From assembly GCA_033439295.1 (NCBI GenBank), contig JAVTLE010000023.1:3384530-3448529 (forward strand): 64,000 bases of DNA, written 5' to 3'. The first letter of the stretch is position 1. Every line of letters begins with the position of its first letter. Shown here piece by piece: positions 49,762 through 63,885 of this stretch. The notes beneath the pieces were generated by a model. That model had not been told where the DNA came from. It ran no database searches and worked only from the letters and a program-made list of their open reading frames with translations. The translations under genes were made by a program, and so were the position numbers. This stretch comes from Deuterostichococcus epilithicus. Lineage: Eukaryota; Chlorophyta; Trebouxiophyceae; Prasiolales; Stichococcaceae.

Positions 49762-51729
49762 ATGCACGCGCAGCTGTACAAGCTTGAGCAGGAGGCGGCA
49801 GTGAAGAAGGCGGCCGGCGTGTCGCTCACGAAGCCACGCCGGCCGTCCGGCCCGCAGCTGGGCCGCGCCAATGCCGGCGTGGCGGAGCGCGACACACTGG
49901 ACCGGCTGCAGGCGCCGGTGGGGCCCTGTTGCAGCTGCATTCGGAGTCTCGGAAGAAATTTGCTGTGACGTTTCCTAATTCGAGTACTTAACCTGCACAG
50001 CGTCACGTGAGGAGACGCGCGATTGCAGGCTGTGGTTCGGTCCTGTCGGTCCTGGCATCACACCTGCTGCGACACAATGCTATGCCCCTGCAAGCAACAC
50101 ACCCGCGCATGTGCGCTTTGAGACCAATACCCATGCCATCTCCTGCCCTGCCCCGCAGACGGATGCAAACCGCCTGGCGGAGTCGGAGGCGGCCCTGCAG
50201 CGTAAAGCCGCGCTGTATGACCGCCTGGCACGCGGCGAGGGCACCGAGGCAGAGGAGGTGATATTCAGCACTTTGCTGTCTCGGGCTCTGGCCTGGTGGC
50301 ATTGGTCTCCGGCAATTTGATAATGCCAGCTGAGCGGCGCCATGGCGCAGACGCAACAGCTTAGTCGACAACAGCGTAAATATGAGGCAGGCATGATGGC
50401 GCCACACCCTGCCATACATCTGAGGCTGCTTGAGGCCGCTGTTGTTGCAGGAGATGTACCATGTGGATTTTCTGGGGAAGTCGGCGTCGGCGCCGCCAAA
50501 CGCCGACGAGCTGACAGCAGCCGCCAACACATTTGGCTCGCGGGCGGGCATCGGCGCATTACATCACACAGGTATGGTTTTCGTATGTTTCCAAGCAGTT
50601 GCGTCTTTAGCTAGTGTCTGATCGCCTGCCTGCTGGCGCCTGCAGCGAAAGACCATGGAGCGGGATTATCACATGTACTTCCTGATCATCGAGCTGCACT
50701 TCCCTATGTCTATATGTCAGAGTAGAGCAGCACGTCTGGTAGAACGCATCCTGCCCAGCAGCCAGTCGATCTCAAGGCGGCTGCCACCTGACTCTGCTGC
50801 AGCACTTCACCACGTGATGGGCCCACACTGGGCAGCCATGTCGCAGCCGAGAACAATATCTTGGTCGATTTTGCAGAAGTACATATTGTTCGATGAACGG
50901 TGACGACAGCAAATTTCAACTGCTGTTTGAGACCCATGCATGCTCCGCTCTGTATGAACGGAATGCATTGCCATGCACGACTGCCTGTGGCATTGCGCCG
51001 GCCAATGAAGAACTACTACTTTCACAGTTTCTGACTGCAAGTGTGACGAACACAACGTACTCAAACCACTGAGGTCATGGCAACCTGCATTTTCCAGCAC
51101 AAATGTCAATACATTCGACTGGGCATCTTTACAGAATCTCAGTCCACTGGCGTCCCCCGCTGCAATGCTCGGCAGCCTGTGTCGTGGTGCGTCCTGTGAT
51201 ATCTTCACCCCTTGATTGCAGGCGATGCAGCGGCGCCGGACGCGCATCGAGAGCAGGCGCAGGAGCAGTGGGTGGAGGAGTCGCAGCAGTCTTATGCGGC
51301 AATGTCAGAGGAGGAGGAGCGACGACAGCGGCGCATTGACGTAGATCTCATCATTCGGTTTCCATATCTCATCTCCGTGCTGCTATCAAGCTCGGCATGA
51401 AGTCAGGCGTTGCCATACTGCCGTGCGTGGATTGCATGAGCAAGTGCTGCTACGGAACCTACACCAGCAGGGGGAGGTCTCGGGCGTGTTGTGTGCATGC
51501 ACTGCGTGGCAGCTTGCGCAGGGTATGACCGGCCGAGGGATCCAGCCATTGTCGTTGTTTGGCCACGCAGTCGGTCTTCGAGTTGGAGAGGGAGACGAAG
51601 GAGGGCCGAAAGCGAGCGGCCGCAGAGAAGGAGCGGCGGAAGGAGCTGGAGGACGCAAAAAGGAAGCAGCTCAAGGCTGCGATGCTGAAGCAGCTGGCGG
51701 CCAAACTAAAGGCATCGAAGCCCGGCTGA
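49762..51729 (+). CDS. CCDC174-like coiled-coil protein
   Basis: Exons 49762-49917, 50159-50257, 50451-50571, from 50646 to about 50674, 51222-51340 and 51571-51729 (stop TGA). The blocks follow human CCDC174 in order: MHAQLYKLEQEA at the start, ESEAALQRKAALYDRLARGE, then YHVDFLGK, then KDHGAG (human RDHGVG), SEEEERRQRR, and a Lys/Arg/Glu coiled-coil end (KERRKELEDAKRKQLKAAML). CCDC174 is a conserved nuclear protein of poorly known role, linked to RNA processing in animals; the same job here is inference. The join between the DHG exon and the exon at 51222 does not keep frame with the donors I can see, so a short exon is probably missed between 50.68 and 51.2 kb. The first exon may also start further upstream. 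Confidence 0.72.
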
Positions 51730-52170: not shown

Positions 52171-53193
52171 TCAGAAATTGAAATTGTCATCCCAACCGCC
52201 GCCGCCGCCGCTCTGCGGCAGAAACTCCTCATCTCCGGCGCTGTTGGCGAACGCCGCAAACAGCTGGTCGTGCTGGGGGTCTGGCGCCCGGGACGGCTGC
52301 TGCCACGCCGGCGCTGCAGCCTTGCGCGGCTGGCTTGCCGCTGCGCGCCGCGGGGCGGGCGCCGCAGCGGCGGCTGCTCGGAGGGGGCTGCGCGGCGCAG
52401 GGATGCTGCGTGGCTGCTGTGGCGTGGCGCTCGGGCTACGCTGCCGCGGCGACGCGACCGGGCTGCTGGACACCGGGCTGCCCGGCTCCTCGGCCACGGC
52501 AGGGCTGCGGGCGGCCTCGCCAAAGCCCTCAAACGGCTGCTCTGCCGCCCCGTCTGCACCTTCAGCGGTCGCTCCCTCGGCAGGATGAGCATCTGCCGCA
52601 GCAGCGGCGGCGGCCCAGTCGTCGTGTTGCTGCGCCTCGCCTGGGGCACCGCTGCTGCCCACACACTGCTCGCTGCCATGCTGCTCGGCGGCGTGCTCGC
52701 CATCGGCGGGCCACTCCTCCGCCGCATGCTGCTCATCGACAGACTGCTCATCAGGCTGCTGCTCGCCGTGCAAGGGCCACTGCGTAGCGTGCTGCTCTGT
52801 GGGCCAGCTGCCGTCGCCGGCGGCCTCGTTCTCAGGGTGATAGCCCTGCCCCGCTGCGGCTCCGCCTTCCTCGGCGGCTGGCTCATAGTCGCCAGCGACC
52901 TCCGGCTCGCTTCCGCCGGCTGCCTTGTCGGCATATGCCGCCTCATCGGCGTACGCAGCGGCAGAGTCCGTCGCCTCGTCGCCCGTCAGCTGCGAAGGTG
53001 TGGCCTCCGCGGCAGCCGCCATGTCCGCGTGTGCTCGTGCCGCCGCTTCGGCATCGCCGCCAAAGCCCTCCTGGGCGTCGCCGCCAAATCCCTCTTCGGC
53101 GTCGCCGCCAAAGCCCTGCTCCTCCTCCACTGCATCCAGGATGGCGTCCACGTCGGTGCCCTGCTGCTCCAGGGCGTCCGACAGCGCCGCCAC
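52171..53193 (-). other. acidic C-terminal tail with GFGGDA repeats
   Basis: The last exon carries three GFGGDA units, then Ala/Glu/Gln-rich acidic sequence, a Ser/Pro-rich basic stretch (SPVASPRQRSPSATPQQPRS) and the terminus GGGGGWDDNFNF. The Trp/Phe-Asp ending looks like an adaptor-ear ligand, which is inference. Confidence 0.65.
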
Positions 53194-56100
53194 CTGCAAT
53201 GACATTCAGGGTTTAGGAGTCAGGGTGCGGGCTGCATGTGTCGACGCCCTGACTGGTGCGCCTGCGCTTCGACACCTGCGCAGCAATGACTTCGAAGCTC
53301 TCTCTGAGCTCAAATTCGAGCAGCATGCGAGGGAGCAGTCGCAGAAGCACAGCGCAGCTGCACGCCCCGCAGCATGGCAGAAGAGGGCGAGCGCCTGCCC
53401 GCAGACGGGACAGACATGGCACAAGTCCTGGGCTCCACAGCTGCTCGGCAGGCGTGCCGGGACGTGTTCATGGAGCATGTTTTCATACTTCAATTGGAAG
53501 GAGCAAGGAGCATTTTCGAGGCGCCTGACCTTGGCAGACTCCTGGCCCAGGCAGGCGAGCAGGTCGTTGAACTCCTGCTGCTGCTCCTCCAGCTGCTCCC
53601 GAAGCGCCGCCGCTTCCGCAGACGGCTCGGCGGCCTCGCCAGCCTGCGGGGGGCGCCGCAGACAGGCTGAGCACAGCGCTCAGCGGCTCCCGACTGAAGG
53701 ACTCGTCAGCTTCTGGGACGGATCCCGCAGCTTCGGGTCACCCAGCGAGAGCTAAGCACGAATGCGAAGCTCATGCCGGCGACAAGCAGCTGGGAGGATG
53801 GTGGCGCACATGCGCTGATGGCGGGAGCCCTGACCTGCATCCAAGAATGCCAACGGGTGCAGCGTGAGGGCTTCAGGAAAGCAGCATAGGGACCGCCAGA
53901 CGGCGCGTGTCACCTGCTGCCCCGCGGCAACGGCAGCGTCAGTGGCCAGCTGGGCACGCAGCGCCGCGGCTTCGGCCTCCAGCGCCTGCACCCGAGCCTG
54001 CAGCGCCTCCCGCTGCGTGTCCGCATCCTCGTACGCCCACAGCTCGTCCTGCAAAAAGGCAGGCAGCAAGGGCGCTGGATGCACAGAACGACAGCGGAAG
54101 TGCGCCTGTCCAGAGCGGCGCCTGCGGTGCCTCCTGCCAAGCATCGAAGCGTGGGCATGCTCAAACTTGGACCCTCGAGTCCGGCAAATACACGGCTTGC
54201 ACCGTGGTAATTTGTCATCTAGGTGAGAGCGCGTCGAGATGCGAGATGACCAGCGCAGCGCCTCGTGCCTTGTTACCATGCAGCTGGGGGTGAGGAGCAG
54301 CCAGTCGCCAGTCGCCTTGTGCCTGCAGGGTTTCAGGGTGTCCTACACACTTCAGGCTTGTAGGGTTTGCAACACCCGAACGTGAGGTGGGAGGGGCTGT
54401 GGAGGACTACCTGCATGCTGTCGAGGGCAGCCTGGCTGGCCTGCAGCTCGCCGGCCAGCTGGTCCCGCTCCGCCGCCAGCTGCGCGACTCGGGCTGACAG
54501 CTCCGCAGCGGAGGCGTCCTGCTGCTGCGCAGCAGCGTGCTCGGCCCGCTCGGCTGCAGCCTGCCACAGGTGGTGGGGTCGTTACTGCTGGGAGCAATGG
54601 TTGACCTGCGAAGTACAGGGCTGCTCGGCAGGACTTCCGCTGACCGCGCAGCATCTGCTGGCCGGGGAAAGCCTGACCCCGAAAGCCCCAGGCAGGCGTG
54701 CAGCCTGCGCAAGGTGCACAGCTCTCCGATGGCAGCAAGCGCACGGGCGGCTGTCGCTGCGAAGCAAGTGGCAACAGAGCACACGACCACAGCAGGCACC
54801 TTCAGCGAGTCGGCCTGCGCCCGCTGCTCCTCGAGCTGCCGTTGGGCCGCTGCTGCTTCCTGCCGCGCCGCTGCCGCCTGCTGCTGCGCTGCCTTCAGGT
54901 GCTGCTGCTGGGCTGCGAGCGACGCGTCGGCGCGCGCGGATGCCTCTGCCGCCTCCTTCCGGGTCGCTGATGCCTGCTCCTCGGCGGCGGCCGCGCGACT
55001 GGTGGCCTCTGCCTCCGCGGCGGTGAGCTCGTCGATGCGCGCCTGCAGGTGAGACAGCGAATGAAGCCATGAATGCACCGTGTCACGTGCTACGATATAG
55101 TTGCTTGAGAATCGTAGCTGCAGCCGCCGTGGGGTCGCGCCCATCGTGTCAGTTTCAGGTGCCAGACGCAGCCTCAGCAGGCACCCTCGTGCCGCCTACC
55201 CCACAGGCCGACGGAGTGGCAGGCAGCGACAGGATGGCAGGACGTGTGGGGCGGACAGGGTGGCGGGACGTGGGTCAAACAGGATGGCAGGACGCGGGCT
55301 GGACAAGCGCAAGCCTCGCCTGCAGCTGCGCGGCGGCGGCCCGGCCATCGCCGAGGGTCGCCGCGGCGCCCTGCGCAGCCGCCCGCGCAGCAACGAGCTC
55401 CGCCTCAACGCGGGACAGCCGCTCCTTCGTTGCAGACGCCTCCGCCTTCGAGGCGGCGGCCTCCTGCTGCGCGGCCGCCGCCTGCTGCTCCAGGGCCACC
55501 AGGCGGTCCTGCAGGCCCTCGGCGTCGCCCCCCGCGTCGGCCAGCGCATCCAGCTGCTCCTGCAATTGAGAAGCGCAGCACCACTTCATCAAGGATTGGA
55601 CAAGCCTCCCAGAATTTGAGCCACCCTGTCTCGAAGCAGGTCTTTTGCCCCACAGACCTGCCGCTTGAACAACTCCTGCAGGCCCGAAGTGACGCCCTCC
55701 GCGTCCGCCCGCGCACCCAGCTGCTCCTGCGGTCGAAAAGGATTCCACGTCTCGGCATGCAAAAAGCGCAGCCCTCCTAGCGCTGTTCTTGATGCCCTGA
55801 ATGTGGACACCATTCAGATGTGCTGGTGAATGCCAATTAGGCGTGCTCCTGCGCCTCTGTGAGTGCATCTGCAGACGAAGACAGCTGGATGGCAACAGCC
55901 TCATCCAGCAGCCTGTCTTCTTGCAGGAGCACGCACAGGCACCAGTGTGCAAGTGCCACGGCGTATGCCACATGCAGGGTGCGGCGCTCACCCGGCGATT
56001 CAGTGCCATGATTTTCGCCAGGCGCGCCTGCAGCACAGCGATCTCCACACCTGCCGGTCCAAAACATGCCGCAGAGATGTGTGACCGGGATTCTGAGTGG

Positions 56101-59100
56101 CAGTGACCCCACCCATGTGGCAGGTTTGCCGAGGCGCACCTGCAGCGCGGCGATCTCCGCCTGACCAGCTTGCAGGGCCTCGCTCAGCCCCGTCTTCTGC
56201 GCCTCCAGCTTGGCAATGCGCTTCTGCAGGCCCGCCGCCTGCGCGCTTGCCATCTCCGCCGCCGCCTTTTCCGCAGCAGCCAACTTCTCCTGTTTTGCGC
56301 GTTCACGAAGTTCAGCGGGCCCACGCGTCCATCCGACGATCAGTTCCTGTTGGGCTCACATGCGCAAGCTTCTCAAACACTTCACAAGCTTTGCACACAA
56401 CAAACAAGCGGGGAGTGTGCACCTGCAGCGCCGCCACCTCGGCGCGTGCGGCCTCCGCTGCCTCCGCCGCGGCCCACTCGCGGGACTCGGAGTCCTGTAG
56501 TCGCGCCGCGAGATCGGCCTTGACCGCGCCGGCGGCCTCTGCCTGCTGCGCAGCCTCCGCGGCAAGGGCGTCCGCACGAGTGACTGCCTCCTGCTGCCGC
56601 CGCTCCGCCTCCTGCCGCTGCCGATGCGCTTCCTGCAGCCGCTGTTCGGCTTCCTGCTGCCGCCGCTCCGCCTCCTGCTGCCCGGCCCGCGCCGCCGCCA
56701 GCTGCGCCTCCAGGCCGCTGGCCCGCCGCTGCGCCTGCTCCGCGGCTTCCTGCGCGTCCACCGCCGCCGCCTCCGCCTCAGCGGCGCGAGCGTCCGCCGC
56801 CCCCACCGCCGCCCGGCCGTCGGCGGCGGCCCCCTCCAGGGCCGCCTTTGCTTCGTCCGCCGCCGCCAGGGCAGCAGCCCGCTGCGCGGCCGCCTCCTCC
56901 GCGCGGGCGGCGGCACCCTCCCCGTCTGCTGCCAGGCTGGCCTTCTCAGCGGCCAGGCTGTCGTTCTCTGCCGTCAGCGCCTCGTTGGCGGCGGTCAGCC
57001 GCTGGAGCTCGGCAGACAGCTCCGCCTGCTGCGACGCAGCCGCCTCGGCCCGCGACTCGGCGGCGGCGGCGCGCGCCGCCGCCGCCTGCACGTCGCCGCC
57101 GGCTGCCACTGCGGCCTCCGCGGCCGCCTGCAGAACGAGCACCACGGCGCGGTGAGCATCTTGTAGAGTACTCTCCTTCAGCACACAGGGGTGCCCGAAG
57201 CAGTCCAGGAGAGCGAAAGCATGGATCTTCAAAACGCGAACGACTTGCGCACGCGATGCATTGTCAAGCGGGCAAGGTGCCACAGCCGCTGCAGGCGGGG
57301 TACCTTCAGAGCACCCTTCCCTCAGTGCTCTGATCCGAATGCTGTGCCTCAGAAGACATAGCACAACTACCGAGTACCTGCTGCGCGTGCTGCTCGGCAA
57401 GAGCCTCGGCCAGGCGCGCCTCCAGCTGCTGGGCGCGCTGCCGCTCCGCCGCCAGCTCCTCTGCGGCGGCATGGCCCTGCGCAGACGCGCCGCAAGGAGC
57501 CGCTCTCAACCACTGGTGGTCCAAACTGCTCTCGACACACCTTCTAGCCATGTGCGTGGGACCTCGGCCCGCTTGCGGCGCTGGCTGGCATGAGCGCGCT
57601 GTCCTCCTTGGAACAACACAAAACAAAACAAATGTACCTTGCCCGCTTGATTAGTGTCTCGTGCAACTATCTCATGCAACAAAAGCCTCTCGCTGTGAGT
57701 CTCAGCCCACCTGGTCGCGCAGCGATGCGTTGTCAGCAGTGCGCGCTTCCAGCGTCTCAGTCAGCGCCGCGACGCGTGTTTCCAGGTCGTCCAGCAGCTC
57801 GTGCGATTCCGCCGCCGCCGCCGCCTCCGCCTCCAGCGCCGCCACCGTCTCTCTGTGGAACGGCGGCAGTAGGGTTGGCACCGAAAGTCGACGTCACATG
57901 GTTTGCCGTGGCACGATAGAATGGGGATGCTAGCAGCTGATGGTGTGCGCGGCCACTGGTGAGCAGCCCAGAAGCATGGCAGGCGGGCATGCAGGCGGGC
58001 AGTGCTCAGAGGATGCTCCCGGCACCTGAGCTGCGCGACCTCTGCAGCGTCAGCGCCGCCGTCCTGCGGTGCCGCCGCTGCAGCCTCCGTCTCCTTGGTG
58101 GCCGCCAGCGCTGCCTCCAGCTCAGCGATGCGGGCATCCGCCGCCGCCAGCTGCCTCTGCACCTGCATGGCGTCTGGGCCTGATTTGGCGTCCACCTCGT
58201 GCAGTGCCTGCGCCGCAGGGCCGGGGGCCGGCTCGCACGACGCTCTCGAATGGGCTCAAGGAAACATCACAAACTCCTGTTCCATTGCTAATGGAGCCAC
58301 AGCCTGCCACCCTGATGCAACATGCTGCCAGAAGGTTGCAGGGAGTTTAGGAGGCAAGCAGCTACAGGAATGCATGCTGAGAGCGCTTGCCAGCAGCACA
58401 TCAGGCGTGGCTGCCGCCACATCGTCGCCAACAGAGGCGATGCTCTCCTGCGGCGCAACGGCGACGCTGCCCTGTTCTGACACCAGGCTAGACGGTGCCG
58501 GTATTGTCCGTTCCGCAGCCGGCTCTGTTGCGGGCAGTTCCGCCACTGGCCCGGCCGCAGGCAGTTCTGCCACAGGCTCTGGGGTCAGCGCCGCTGCCGG
58601 CGTTGGCACGGAGACTGCCGCCGGCTCTGCGCTGAGCGGCGCCGCACTCTCGTCGTCCTGCTGCCAGCCGTCGTCCTCGGCCTGCCAGCCGCCTTCGTCC
58701 CCCCAGCCGTCCGCTGCGCCGGCGCCTGCCTGGAGTGCTTCTGCTGCGGCACCGGCCGGCGTGCTGTCTGCCGGCGGCTGCTCTGGCTGCGCTGCTGACG
58801 CTTCCGCTTCGCTGCCGGCGTCGGCGTCGGCGGCTGCGGCTGTGCCGTGCACAGCAGCAGCGGCGGCATCGCCTCCAAGCTCCGGCAGCGGCGCCGAGCC
58901 CTGCGACTCCTCCGGCAGCTGGCCCTCGTCGAGCGCGTCCCAGCCATCTGCTTCCTGCTGCCACTCATCACCCTCCCAGCCCGCCTCGTCCTCCGCCGCC
59001 GCCGCAGACTCCGGCAGCGCCACAGCCTCGTCCAGATCAGCAGGCTGGGCTTCTGTCACGGCCGCCGCAGGCTGCTCGCCAGCTGGCTCAGGTTCGGCGT

Positions 59101-62100
59101 CCGCGGCGTCCGCGGCGTCTGCGGCGGAAGCGCCGGCACTGGCCGCGTCTTGGAACAGGGCCTTGACGGCTGCTGGGGTGGGGGTGCTGGTGACCTCCGT
59201 GTCTCCCTCCTCAGCCGTCGGCGGCAGCTGCGACTGCTGCAGCGACGCCTCCGACAGCAGCGAGGCAGCGACGTCCAGCGACCTGCACTCGATCACGCAG
59301 CGCACGCCATCGGCTTGTGTGAAGCCAACAAACGGGCTGCAGATTCGAGAGCGGCTGCGCCAGCACGAAGCAAGCGAAGCAAGCACACAAGCCGGCGACT
59401 TGGTCAGCATGCTGGTCTCCGCGGGTCCGCTTCCTGGACCCCCCGCCCCGCACAGGCCTTGATGTCCACGCCCAGCGGAGGCACGTCCCGCGGCCCAGGG
59501 ACATTTGTACAGGCAAGCTCCAGACCACGCAGCGGGGGCCCGCACCAGGCGTGACCAGGCGCGTGCACTCAACACAGACGGGGTGGACAGCGCGCAACCG
59601 AGGGTCGCTGTCCGCGTATACCACTGTCCCCCGAACTCTTGACGCGGTCTCAGGAGACGCACCAAGCATGATCGGGACGCAGGCGCTCCGGGGTGGACAG
59701 AGCGCGGCCGAGGTCGTTGCCCACATAGTCCGGCACGCTGCCCGAGGAAGAAGACACCGGAGGGCTGCCGCCCGGTGCTGCATTGGGGACACCGATTCAG
59801 CGTTGTCCGGGCGCCCGAGAGGCGGTTGCTCATGTCTGGTGAGGACCCGCCGTGACAAACATGGCAGACACAGACGGCAGCGGGCACTGGATGTGCAGAA
59901 AGCCTGAGCGGCATTGCAGAACGTTGCGGTGCAATGCATTCCAGCAATGGGCTGGGCTACGTCTGATGCAGCTGTGCACCTTGCAGTGTCGATAATAGCA
60001 CAGAACCTCACCTGCATCCGGCGCTGGAGGGCCAGCCTCCCAGTGGCCGCCCCCATTCTGCAGCTCTGGCACCCCACCGAGCTCGTCATTGCCGGGCTGC
60101 TGCGGCTGCAGCGGTGACGGCGCCGGCGAGCGCACCGAGCCCGGGCTGCCGGCCTCGTCAGCGTCCTCCCACGGCAGTGGCCCCGTGATCTTGCCTGCAT
60201 GGAGGCGAGGGATTTGCTATCGCATTCCGTGTGCTGCCACCAACATGTGTTGGAAGCTTGCTGTGTGACTTGGCTAGTGGCAGCCGTGCAATATTCCTTG
60301 ACCACAGAGTCCGGCGCATCATCATTAGTAGACAGAATGGTGGTGCACAGCGCCAAGGCCCCACCTCGCAAGAGGCGCAGGGATGATTCAACCCGGAATG
60401 TGGGGTCACACTGAAGAGTGGTCGCAGTCAGGCAGCCCCACCTGTGGTGTCGCTGGCGTGCGAGGACGTGCCGCGAGCGAGCCACGCGCCGAGCGACGCC
60501 ATGTGCCCCAGCGGACCGGGGGTGCCGCCGGCTGCACGCGACGCGTGCGCCGCCTCGCCGCCTGCAGGGGTGAAATACTCCGTCCCCGGCGTCTGCGGTC
60601 GCTGGTGGGAGCCAAAGGCCCCCGGCGTCTGCTCCGCCGCGCGCCGCGGGCTGCCCGGCTCCGCCAGCTGCGCCGCCTGCTCAAAGGCGGAGCCGCGTCG
60701 GAAGGAGGTGTCCTGCTGGCGGGCGGGAGACTCCTGCCCGTGGGGTGACGCAGCGGTTGGCGGCGGCGCCTCGGCATCGGTGTCTAGCGCCGCCGCCTCC
60801 GCTGGCGCAACCGAGGTGGTGTCCACCCACTGCGCAGTGGCGACCGCCGCCTCCATGGCGGCCGCCGCCTCCGGCGCATGTTGCGCCGCCTGAAATGCCT
60901 GCAGCGAACGTCGGCGAGATTGTTGAGCATGGGTCGTGATGCGGTCAGACCCAGTTGCTCATCACGAAGCTGACGGCATTGAAGTCGCATGTGCCGCTGT
61001 GCGGCCAGATTGTATCAGCTAATTCCTCAGTGAACGAGCTTTGTGGCAGGGATGGCCGCAGCCAAAGTGCACCTGCTCAGGATGCGCAGCGTCGCCAGGC
61101 TGCTGGTCTGCCAGCACGTCAGCGGCCGCCACCGGCTCCGCAGCGGCGGTGGTCGCGGCAGGCGCCTCCTCGCCTGCGCCAACAGAGGCGCCGGCGGTCG
61201 CTGCCACCGAGGCGGCGTCCGGCTGCGCAGCGTATGGCGCCAGCCACTCTGCGATCTGTTCCTCGGTGTAACCCTGCTGCCGATAGTAGTCCGCCCACTC
61301 CTGGACCTGCGTCAGCGGTCACGACCATGGCTTGAACACTTCGAGAAGGGGCTCAATGTGCCCTTGGAACTTCCGTGTATCTTGTTCGGACCTTAAAGGC
61401 GCAGTGTCATGGCGCATATTGCGCACTGCTAATGAAAGTTGCCTAAGCCTGCGCACACTGACAGCAGCTCTGCAGCTATGCAGCCGTGTCACTGATAGCA
61501 GCTCTGCAGTTCTGCTACTGTGCAGCTGTGCAACTCTTGCAGCTCCTACAACTTTTGCAGCTTTGACTGGCTGCCAATGCCAAAATGGTGCAGGAGGCGC
61601 CAAAATGGTGCAGGAGGCGGTACCTGCTCCAGCGTGTACGTCTCCTGTGCGCCCTCCGGCGCAGCCTCTGTCGCCGCCTGGCCCTCCTGCTCCACATACG
61701 GCACGTCCCACGCCTGCTGCTGCTCCGGCAGAGCATCGGCTGGCTGCCCGGCATCATACTGCTCGGGATCCGTCGGCTGCCCGGCGCCATGCTGCTCGGC
61801 GCCGTAGTCCTGCGCCGGTCCCCCCTCCGGGTCCCACTCAGCGCCCGCCGCACCGCCAAAGCCATTCGCCGCGGCCGCCTCGGTGTCCGCTGCGCCACCG
61901 AGGCTGTCCGCCGCTGCCGCCTCCGGATCCGCTGCCGCTGCAGCTGGCTCCTCGATGCTGACGAGCAGCGAGCCGATATGCGGCTGCGAGGGAGCGGTGT
62001 ACGCGGCGCCGACTGGCGGGGAGAGCGGCGAGGTCGCTGCTGCTGCGCCATGCCGAGGCGTGCGCATGCCTGGCGACGGGGGCTGCGACTGCGCCTGAGC

Positions 62101-63885
62101 AGCAATGAGCCGGCTCAGAGGAGTGGGGTTCTGGCAGCGATTGCAGCAGAGGAGCAACACCTAAACCAACTTTCATCCAGGCAAAAGTCGCAGATGGCAA
62201 TGTCATACCGGTGAGAACATTTCGCGCCCGTCTGTGACGCCAGGCTGACCCATCGGTGGTGGGCTTGGGGACTGCATGGCGGGCAATGATCATCATCAGC
62301 AAGTCGAGGGTCCCCACTTCAGATTGCATTACATAATGACACGCAGATGATGTGTAGATCTGGCCGACATCTGGCAGCCGGCACCATACCTGCTTGACCG
62401 GCGGCGGCGACGCCGCACCGTCCTCGGCGCTCAGCAGTGCCTGGGAGGATGCCCAGTGCAGCGCGCCGTTCGCTCCCTGTGCATCCCTTCCTGACGTCGT
62501 GCGCACCGCCGGCAGCTCAGCGGCAGCCGGGGGCTGCTCCTCAGCAGCAGGCGAGTCGTCGGCCGCATCCGCCGCCTCCGCCGGCGCGCCGGGGTTGAAG
62601 AATGTCACGCTGGGCTTGGCGAACGCGCTGCCGCCGCCGGCATCGGCGCCGGGAGTTGCGCCGGGGGGCATAAAGAAGCCGACCTGCGCCACAAATTGTA
62701 GCAGTGGTAGGTATGGACTGCCAGGACGGAGGGACAAGGCAGATTGAGTACAGAGCGCCACCTTGATGTGGCGACAGCGCCCCTTCAGCATCAGGGGCGC
62801 TGCAGAATCCCTTTTGCTGCCTGTGGATGACAGCATTGCGTGATACGGTGGCAGTGCGCATGATGCATGCGCATGGGGCCATGGCTCACCTTCGCGCCTC
62901 CGCCAGCGGCGCCCGGCGGCATGAATGCCCCGCGGGCGGGGCTGGCAAACGACGAGCCGCTGCCGGTGCTCTTGGGCTGGCTGCCAAAGGCGCCCGTCGA
63001 GGCGTAGCGGCTTGCGACGCCACCCTTGGCCGCGCGCAGGCCGCCCGAGCGGAAGCTGCCGGAGGGGCTGGCCTCCGGGGTGCCGGCCTGGCTGCTCCTG
63101 CAGGGTGCGACCTCCCTTCTCATTTGCATCCAAGTGCGCATTCGAGGATGTGGCTTGCAACCCTGTGGACTGGCTGCTGCGCCAGCCATCCGCCATCCTT
63201 CGCTGTTGCACTCTCCGCCTGTCGCAAGCGCCGCAGCCGCGGAACGCAGGGTGGCCATTGCGGCATTGCGTTGCTGTATCTGGTGTGCATCAATGAACGG
63301 CATGCTGGGTGGCTGCACCTTTGAGACAGCGGCTGCCCGGGTGGGGCTTCCAGCGGGGCGGCGGGCCCGCCTTCGTTTGGAGCAGTGCTGGCTCGTGTGG
63401 GCGGCGGCGGCGGCACAAGGTCAGGCGGCGGCGCGTCACTGCCCTCCTCCCTCCAGCATTTGCGCTGCGTCAGGGAAGCGGGCCATGAGTGACGACGTCA
63501 GCATGATGCGCCGGCAGTACCCTGGACTCTGAACCTCCCAAGATTTGATCAGCCCTCAGGAGTACACAGACGCATTTGACGCCACAGCGATTCCTGACTT
63601 TGCGTGATCTGTGAGCAGAGTCCGCTGCTCTGCTACGACTCACCTCCTCGTCATAGAAAAACTTGTTGGTTTCGCCCATCTTCGCCTTCACAGCCGGCTT
63701 CTTGCCGTCGCCAGGGCCCTGGACAGAGTGAAACTCCGCGAGATTGGCCTCGCAATGTTCCATTGATACATCAGGTGCTGGATCATTATAAACAGAGAGA
63801 TCTAAGCGAAAAAGGCAACGGATTTTGAACTCACCCAGAGGCGTCCCAGGAGGCCGCGCTTTGCGGGGGTGACCTGCTTCTCCAT
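52171..63885 (-). CDS. SEC16-tail / p115-tail coiled-coil protein
   Basis: In-frame exons from the N side: 63885-63835, 63718-63644, 63464-63319, 63097-62890, 62683-62390, 62130-61624, 61306-61073, 60898-60442, 60194-60012, 59313-58421, 58207-58026, 57852-57711, 57476-57378, 57127-56423, 56289-56140, then further coiled-coil exons to 53193-52171. The first exons carry the SEC16 C-terminal signature (KMGETNKFFYDEE, then RKCWREEGSDAPPP and a proline run). The middle is acidic and Trp-rich, then a long Ala/Glu/Gln coiled coil, and the end carries the p115/Uso1/MAG4 tail motif (NDLLACLGQESAKV). SEC16 organises COPII exit sites; p115 tethers ER-to-Golgi vesicles. The frame is open upstream of the ATG at 63885, so the gene may begin beyond the window. 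No p115 armadillo head or SEC16 central domain lies in the window. Confidence 0.72.
53051..53122. repeat. 24-bp coding repeat, three copies
   Basis: Units start at 53051, 53075 and 53099 and share GCGTCGCCGCCAAA; they encode the GFGGDA(E/Q)E repeats of the SEC16/p115-like tail. Confidence 0.85.
53193..58207 (-). other. long coiled-coil rod ending in p115/Uso1-type motif
   Basis: Exons encode uninterrupted heptad-like sequence, e.g. ARIAELEAALAATKETEAAA, ETVAALEAEAAAAESHELLD, AAERQRAQQLEARLAEALAE, QQEAERRQQEAEQRLQEAHR and RVAQLAAERDQLAGELQASQ. The exon at about 53650-53530 ends QQEFNDLLACLGQESAK and joins in phase to VAALSDALEQQGTDVDAIL; this matches the plant p115 (MAG4) tail D-L-L-V-C-L-G-Q-E-x-S-K-V with its following G-x-D-V-D. 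Exons between 56.05 and 55.7 kb and at 54.4-54.6 kb are only approximately bounded. Confidence 0.75.
55229..55304. repeat. about 25-bp minisatellite, three copies, in an intron
   Basis: Copies of ACAGGATGGCAGGACGTG begin at 55229, 55255 and 55279 with a few changes. They fall in the intron between two coiled-coil exons of the SEC16/p115-like gene. Confidence 0.85.
58421..59313 (-). other. acidic Trp-rich repeats
   Basis: One 893-base exon. Within an acidic Ala/Pro/Glu-rich stretch are DEAGWEGDEWQQEADGWDAL and, further on, ADGWGDEGGWQAEDDGWQQD. The spacing of Trp in acidic sequence resembles adaptor-binding W motifs seen in trafficking proteins such as SCYL1. The acceptor at 59313 (CACAAG|CCGATG) was chosen because it is the one that keeps phase with the exon before. 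Confidence 0.6.
61581..61620. repeat. 20-bp tandem duplication beside a donor
   Basis: CAAAATGGTGCAGGAGGCG is repeated head to tail at 61581 and 61601, identical over 19 bases. On the coding (-) strand it lies within the first bases of the intron after the exon ending ETYTLEQ. Confidence 0.92.
62890..63885 (-). other. SEC16-type C-terminal signature region
   Basis: Four exons give KRGLLGRLW, GPGDGKKPAVKAKMGETNKF, FYDEE, RKCWREEGSDAPPPDLVPPP, and later GGVASRYASTGAFG. Plant and animal SEC16 proteins end with a short hydrophobic/Trp lead, a K-L-G-E-x-N-x-F-Y-Y-D-E-x-L-K-R-W motif, an E-E-G-x-x-x-x-P-P-P run and an R-S-R-Y-V-D-x-F-N motif; all four are matched in order. All junctions keep phase. 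In SEC16 this follows the central COPII-binding domain, which would have to lie to the right of 64000. Confidence 0.75.

Follow-up and report, generated by a model that had tools for sequence, protein, structure and literature searches.

The locus described here raises the question of whether a single gene of the green alga Deuterostichococcus epilithicus encodes a protein that begins with a tail of the SEC16 type and ends with a tail of the p115 (Uso1) type. The gene in question lies on the minus strand of a 64,000-nucleotide stretch of DNA, hereafter the window (C19:3384530-3448529), in a genome of 46.8 Mb and 21 contigs that was searched as a whole. A first-pass annotation of the window alone had proposed that both tails apparently belong to one protein. 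This stands well for the p115 end and moderately for the SEC16 end, at which the likeness is collinear but weak genome-wide, and the single gene is predicted by an in-frame model. The arrangement of two known modules appears to be new, with good evidence for the p115-type tail, moderate evidence for the SEC16-type tail and for the single gene, and a function deduced from the parts. On balance, the data lean slightly towards one gene that would encode a third early-secretory scaffold beside SEC16 and p115, linking endoplasmic reticulum (ER) exit sites and the Golgi, in which a Sec16-type tail replaces the p115 head.

The predicted gene starts with an ATG at 63885, and its reading frame stays open for 2153 codons until a TGA whose last base is 52171. 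Of its exons (Table 1), 24 come from a self-trained gene model and one (62271-62209) was placed by eye; the gene model chains neighbouring genes, and a spurious 2-base exon was removed from its reading of this gene. Phase is preserved at all 24 junctions, which confirms the continuity previously traced from 63885 to 56140 and at the last junction, and now includes the 56140-53530 stretch that the first-pass annotation had left untraced. Both signatures also lie where they had been placed, with GLLGRLW, KMGETNKFFYDEE, CWREEGSD and PPPPP at amino acids (aa) 11-64 and DLLACLGQE and GTDVDAI at aa 1802-1831. For 23 of the 24 gaps, no more than 4 of 100 dinucleotide-shuffled versions gave an in-frame intron that scored as well or better, in a test that is not fully independent because sites from this gene were among those used to train the splice matrices. 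The introns are close in splice strength (median 10.95 against 11.1) and length (median 227.5 against 216 bases) to 83 modelled introns at 15-49 kb, the largest gap between exons is no more than 380 bases, and the sequence from 52 to 64 kb is free of N. Together with the splice statistics, the presence of an in-frame intron in every gap and the lack of any gap above 380 bases make it very probable that 52171-63885 is one gene.

It is fairly improbable that these exons instead belong to two adjacent genes on the same strand, one for a SEC16-type-tail protein ending at about 62.2 or 59.6 kb and one for a p115-tail coiled-coil protein. Several observations nevertheless weigh on that side. The gap at 62208-62089, beside the exon placed by eye, is the weakest in the gene, being equalled or bettered by 26 of 100 dinucleotide-shuffled gaps, and puts the poorest junction at 62.2 kb; without this exon, the model links 62390 to 62088, also in frame. 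Over 64.03-52.06 kb, the gene model scores one gene at 558.3 and the best two-gene split at 545.9, with cuts placed every 100 bases excluding 1.5 kb at either end, but 11 units of this 12.4-unit advantage come from a fixed penalty charged for any second gene, and on its own the preference is therefore weak. The six best splits, including those at about 62.1 and 59.6 kb, cost approximately 1-5 units above that penalty. Furthermore, the end of a possible small open reading frame (ORF) on this strand lies only 144 bases ahead of the ATG, which implies, if it is real, that tight gene spacing may occur here, and the single transcript is a prediction of the in-frame model. Set against a division are the short gaps and typical introns described above, together with the in-frame introns held by the gaps at 59.6 and 58.3 kb, which are equalled in only 3 and 4 of 100 shuffled gaps, respectively. 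A separate start with homology to the p115 head had been named as a sign of two genes; p115 with its head is found on contig C12, which removes the version with the p115 gene inside the window and leaves that with a head-less coiled-coil gene. The motif TGTAA, tried as an algal poly(A) marker, was uninformative on this point. It occurs 1397 bases past the p115 stop and 1037 past that of the window gene, with none in the 1500 bases after the end of the SEC16 model, and the lone internal copy (62333) sits in an intron with an open frame and therefore does not follow a stop.

If the gene is single, its product begins with approximately 207 aa that are collinear with a stretch of about 205 aa in the tail of the alga's own SEC16, encoded on contig C11. 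The common marks, in order, are RG..R, AKMGE.N.F..DE....W.E.G, the proline run, STAP, SS..G.P...PSG, GV.SRY, PPGA and FF.PGA. The Smith-Waterman score of the whole module against the SEC16 tail is 190, compared with maxima of 127 in 1000 full shuffles and 158 in 1000 local shuffles (106 and 143 in a run of 500, the local shuffles being over 20 residues), and when 19 windows of the protein were aligned to this tail, aa 1-209 gave the top score, with 92 the next. A 50-aa query from exons 2-3 matched C11:615367-615483 with an expect value (E) of 2.5e-4 and 55% identity, the sole site below E 0.1 other than itself. Since the module is collinear and contains the AKMGE-type motif, which we take to be a signature of the Sec16 tail, the N-terminus is very likely homologous to the tail of SEC16, the likeness appearing firm only as far as the proline run. 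This comparison used a single SEC16, that of the alga itself, and no Pfam model of the region came up.

The alternative that the gene is single and ends in a p115-type tail, but that its likeness to SEC16 is a short proline-rich disordered motif, either convergent or widely shared, and says nothing about Sec16 function, is unlikely. In its favour, the successful 50-aa query included the proline run and had one extra proline in it, and a 43-aa query lacking the run recovered only the window itself from the genome. The query with the whole module returned the window's five exons and four other weak places, not C11:615 kb, and the reciprocal query with the SEC16 tail recovered that tail and 14 weak sites elsewhere but missed the window. 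For the SEC16-type likeness, composition-adjusted BLASTP gave 18.5 bits (E 0.081), a comparison of the 43-aa core gave 55 for an unrelated frame against 58, and the part of the module after the prolines scores 102, within the range of its shuffles (maxima 121 and 119). Because the genome searches read one exon at a time after a loose initial screen, their sensitivity is low; the SEC16 TPR domain and the p115 head escaped them too, although both are matched once exons are joined. A motif of this kind is difficult to reconcile with marks that are collinear over about 200 aa, or with the scores of the parts: aa 1-54 by themselves score 63 (at most 49 in full shuffles and 63, a tie, in local ones), and the module with all prolines masked scores 93 (maxima 69 and 88). 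Apparent further copies of the SEC16-type tail on C5 and C18 were rejected as noise after their frames were read (E 0.72 and 9.6), and the best of the matches listed in a PDB search with the module was streptavidin, at E 0.19.

The alga has separate genes for both of the proteins whose tails are resembled. The SEC16 gene on C11 contains PF12931 (E 5.2e-30) and PF12932 (E 9.9e-8) when its exons, one of them by hand, are joined. The p115 gene on C12 encodes the PF04869 head (E 7.9e-11) and PF04871 (E 2.5e-7), and over the first 429 residues of its model it matches the p115 head structure 3gq2 (E 1e-48); this is the separate p115 with an armadillo head for which the first-pass annotation had advised a search. 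By contrast, Pfam scans of the window protein, in five pieces covering aa 1-2153, detected neither PF12932 nor PF12931, no PF04869 armadillo head, and neither GRIP nor any other Golgi-anchor family. It shares a PF04871 region and a coiled-coil tail with p115/Uso1 and a long coiled coil with the golgins. Without the central domain it is not a Sec16, and without the head it is not a p115, although it may act like a combination of the two. The fallback suggestion that a SEC16 central domain lies upstream, which would make the gene a SEC16 with a golgin-like extension, found no support: to the right of 64000 are the small two-exon ORF, a divergent gene with PF00179 and a thymidine kinase gene, the last being the only Pfam match (E <= 0.1) among modelled minus-strand exons at 64-70.6 kb. 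Hence no Sec16 central domain belongs to the window gene, and with SEC16 itself on C11 this possibility was ruled out.

A specialised SEC16 duplicate, which has lost its central domain and regulates COPII only, with a coil that merely oligomerises, would fit the collinear module. For the yeast and human proteins, the C-terminal conserved region (CTR) of Sec16 is described as binding Sec23 and Sec12 (PMC3275590, PMC10184828); in Pichia it is reported to be the main Sec12-binding site and to interact with Sec23 (PMC3275590), and the C-terminus of budding yeast Sec16 to have distinct sites for Sed4 and Sec23 (PMC10184828). As it leaves the p115 tail and the length of the coil unexplained, this history is decidedly unlikely.

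The p115-type end is the better supported of the two. Across the joined exons, PF04871 (Uso1_p115_C) scores 29 bits, above its cut-off of 28.4 (E 1.4e-6), and a genome search at E <= 1 found this family in only two places, the window gene (5.2e-4) and C12:3129139-3129264 (0.012). When aligned with the tail of the alga's own p115, the tail of the window protein is identical at 21 of 43 residues, including DLLACLGQE and DVDA.L, with a score of 104, where shuffles reached at most 63 and 73. There is consequently good evidence, at the level of sequence, for identifying this end of the protein as a p115 tail. The points that weigh against it concern the coiled-coil background and the extent of the match. 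PF04871 also appeared below its cut-off in 3 of 14 prokaryote control genomes at E <= 1, a sign of such background, and when the final 130 aa of p115 are the reference, other windows of the coil score up to 96, compared with 143 and 104 for the tail windows. The likeness spans about 45 aa, ending about 45 residues upstream, and in a single exon the tail scores 59, below the maximum of 61 from 500 shuffles. The introns of the gene lie near those of SEC16 and p115 but not at identical positions. A collection of genome contigs yielded no relative of the p115-type tail, and one of viral contigs none of the SEC16-type module, both collections being non-eukaryotic. That one gene encodes a coiled-coil protein with a SEC16 tail and without relation to p115, its ending being merely convergent, would account for a short likeness within a coil rich in Ala, Glu and Gln, the weak prokaryotic matches and a tail intron off the p115 position, but is very improbable given the domain score above cut-off and the identity of nearly half the aligned residues.

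Between the two tails, only weak coil-type matches below the cut-offs were found by Pfam (Dynamitin at E 0.0043 and four others). Heptad periodicity is significant (p <= 0.05) in 12 of the 16 98-aa windows starting at aa 1079-1814, as compared with 1 of 26 windows elsewhere, delimiting a coiled coil of approximately 750 residues. Such a coil would be about 110 nm long if fully helical. Ahead of it, exon 12 encodes two triplets of tryptophans, 866/871/878 and 957/963/970, each with 3-7 acidic residues within eight positions. Tryptophans in an acidic context are described as binding delta-COP in Dsl1 and in ArfGAPs (PMC7145657, PMC4868844). The likeness to the Dsl1 lasso and ArfGAP motifs consists of tryptophans amid acidic residues, and is no more than a resemblance. 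Two further observations were made in this part of the gene. Exon 8 (61306-61073) encodes an isolated amphipathic-looking stretch, EWADYYRQQGYTEEQIAEWLAPY (aa 437-460), amid low complexity and without a Pfam match, and the 12 bases ctgtccaccccg are present twice, at 59700-59689 in exon 11 and at 59590-59579 in the intron after it; by eye, the bases preceding the two copies are similar.

Taking these parts together, a function for the protein can be proposed. Its N-terminus, as a probable relative of the CTR that contacts Sec23 and Sec12/Sed4 in yeast and human Sec16, would be expected to place it at ER exit sites. The disordered acidic linker that follows, with its tryptophan clusters, might contact delta-COP of the COPI coat, and the chain would then enter the long coiled coil, which may dimerise. 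The p115-type tail is predicted to reach a Golgi-side partner of p115, or to pair with p115 itself. In p115, the coil is described as dimerising and the acidic end as binding GM130 (PMC7619307), a protein reported to be restricted to metazoans (PMC5840792). For human cells, direct contact between the p115 head and Sec16A, through a Sec16A motif kept in vertebrates and not in invertebrates, was reported in 2026, and the authors speculate that it could keep exit sites and the cis-Golgi close (PMC7619307). Because the Sec16-type tail of the algal protein sits where p115 has its head, the same link would, arguing from the parts, exist within one chain: a built-in connection from exit site to cis-Golgi, and functionally a p115 with a coat-binding tail in place of its head. 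A more specific proposal, that this single polypeptide is a natural algal fusion of a Sec16 coat-binding tail with a p115-type coil and tail, serving as a dedicated linker from ER exit sites to the Golgi with COPI-capturing tryptophan patches, can be made only tentatively and is rather doubtful. How Golgi stacks stay at ER exit sites is an open question. Were the proposed link correct, it would represent an independent solution of the link proposed for p115 and Sec16A, contained in one chain that is a candidate for direct tagging and deletion, and would imply that the Sec16 C-terminal region can move as a unit that lacks the central domain.

The coordinates of the gene's parts, and of its neighbours on either side, are collected in Table 1.

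Table 1. Features of the predicted gene and its surroundings, numbered from the first base of the window (positions above 64000 lie to its right)
Feature	Position	Strand	Remarks
Whole predicted gene	52171..63885	minus	25 exons, 2153 aa
SEC16 C-terminal-conserved-region-like module, aa 1-~207	62390..63885	minus	exons 1-5 reach aa 258; from alignment to own SEC16
Exons 1-5	63885-63835, 63718-63644, 63464-63319, 63097-62890, 62683-62390	minus	
Exon 6 (optional), SPSPPPMGQPGVTDGREMFSP	62209..62271	minus	by eye; absent from gene model; 3' junction weakest of 24
Exons 7-11	59663..62088	minus	acidic, Pro/Ala-rich; no Pfam match
Exon 12	58400..59282	minus	two acidic tryptophan triplets, ~58990-58640
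Coiled-coil region, aa ~1070-1840	53115..58174	minus	exons 13-24 plus first part of exon 25
p115/Uso1 C-terminal-like tail	53110..53643	minus	exon 24 (53643-53530) plus first part of exon 25 (53193 onwards)
C-terminal extension	52174..53109	minus	acidic, contains Gln and Trp; ends GWDDNFNF
Small two-exon ORF, MELFMIRTGFYDK to ADEKSRG	64030-64319	minus	67 aa by eye; GTGAGT donor; no Pfam match
Ubiquitin-conjugating enzyme gene	64994-66201	plus	divergent, right of window; PF00179 E 5.6e-48
Thymidine kinase gene	~66650-67800	minus	right of window; PF00265
Small model, charged coil-like protein	50893-51729	plus	convergent with window gene
Very large gene or genes, VPS13-like	~15000-49000	minus	PF25036 E 3.1e-29; 83 modelled introns

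No protein combining a Sec16 tail with a p115 tail was found in searches of the open-licence PubMed Central literature on Sec16, p115 and golgins. The closest counterparts are the sources of the two modules. With Sec16/MAIGO5 (MAG5), the window protein has in common marks of the CTR, in the order seen in the alga's own SEC16, but its module is N-terminal rather than C-terminal and is not accompanied by PF12931 or PF12932. With p115/Uso1/MAG4 it shares PF04871 and a coil that closes in the DLLACLGQE...DVDA block and acidic residues, while differing in lacking an armadillo head and in continuing for about 310 residues past the tail. Its coil is also approximately four times the length of that in the alga's own p115, which is about 180-210 aa by eye. 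TANGO1/cTAGE5 and TFG are coiled-coil organisers of exit sites, the coils of which contact the Sec23/Sec16 machinery. The proposed place and logic of the window protein are similar to theirs, but it has no Pfam match to their domains.

Among green organisms, Chlamydomonas reinhardtii is described as lacking a Sec16 orthologue, and the Uso1 of Arabidopsis and tomato as having both head and C-terminal domains (PMC4028247). In plants, the ER-Golgi tethers are said to await identification (PMC5853478). The same source proposes the golgin AtCASP as such a tether and expects that there are others, a role like that suggested here; it differs in being a transmembrane golgin, for which the cited part of that paper describes neither a Sec16 nor a p115 tail. 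The Toxoplasma protein ULP1 is similar in being a large protein that combines a p115-like part with unrelated sequence, and a table of its proximity labelling includes a Sec16-like protein (PMC11559087). As described there, however, ULP1 retains the p115-like head, whereas the algal protein retains only the p115 tail.

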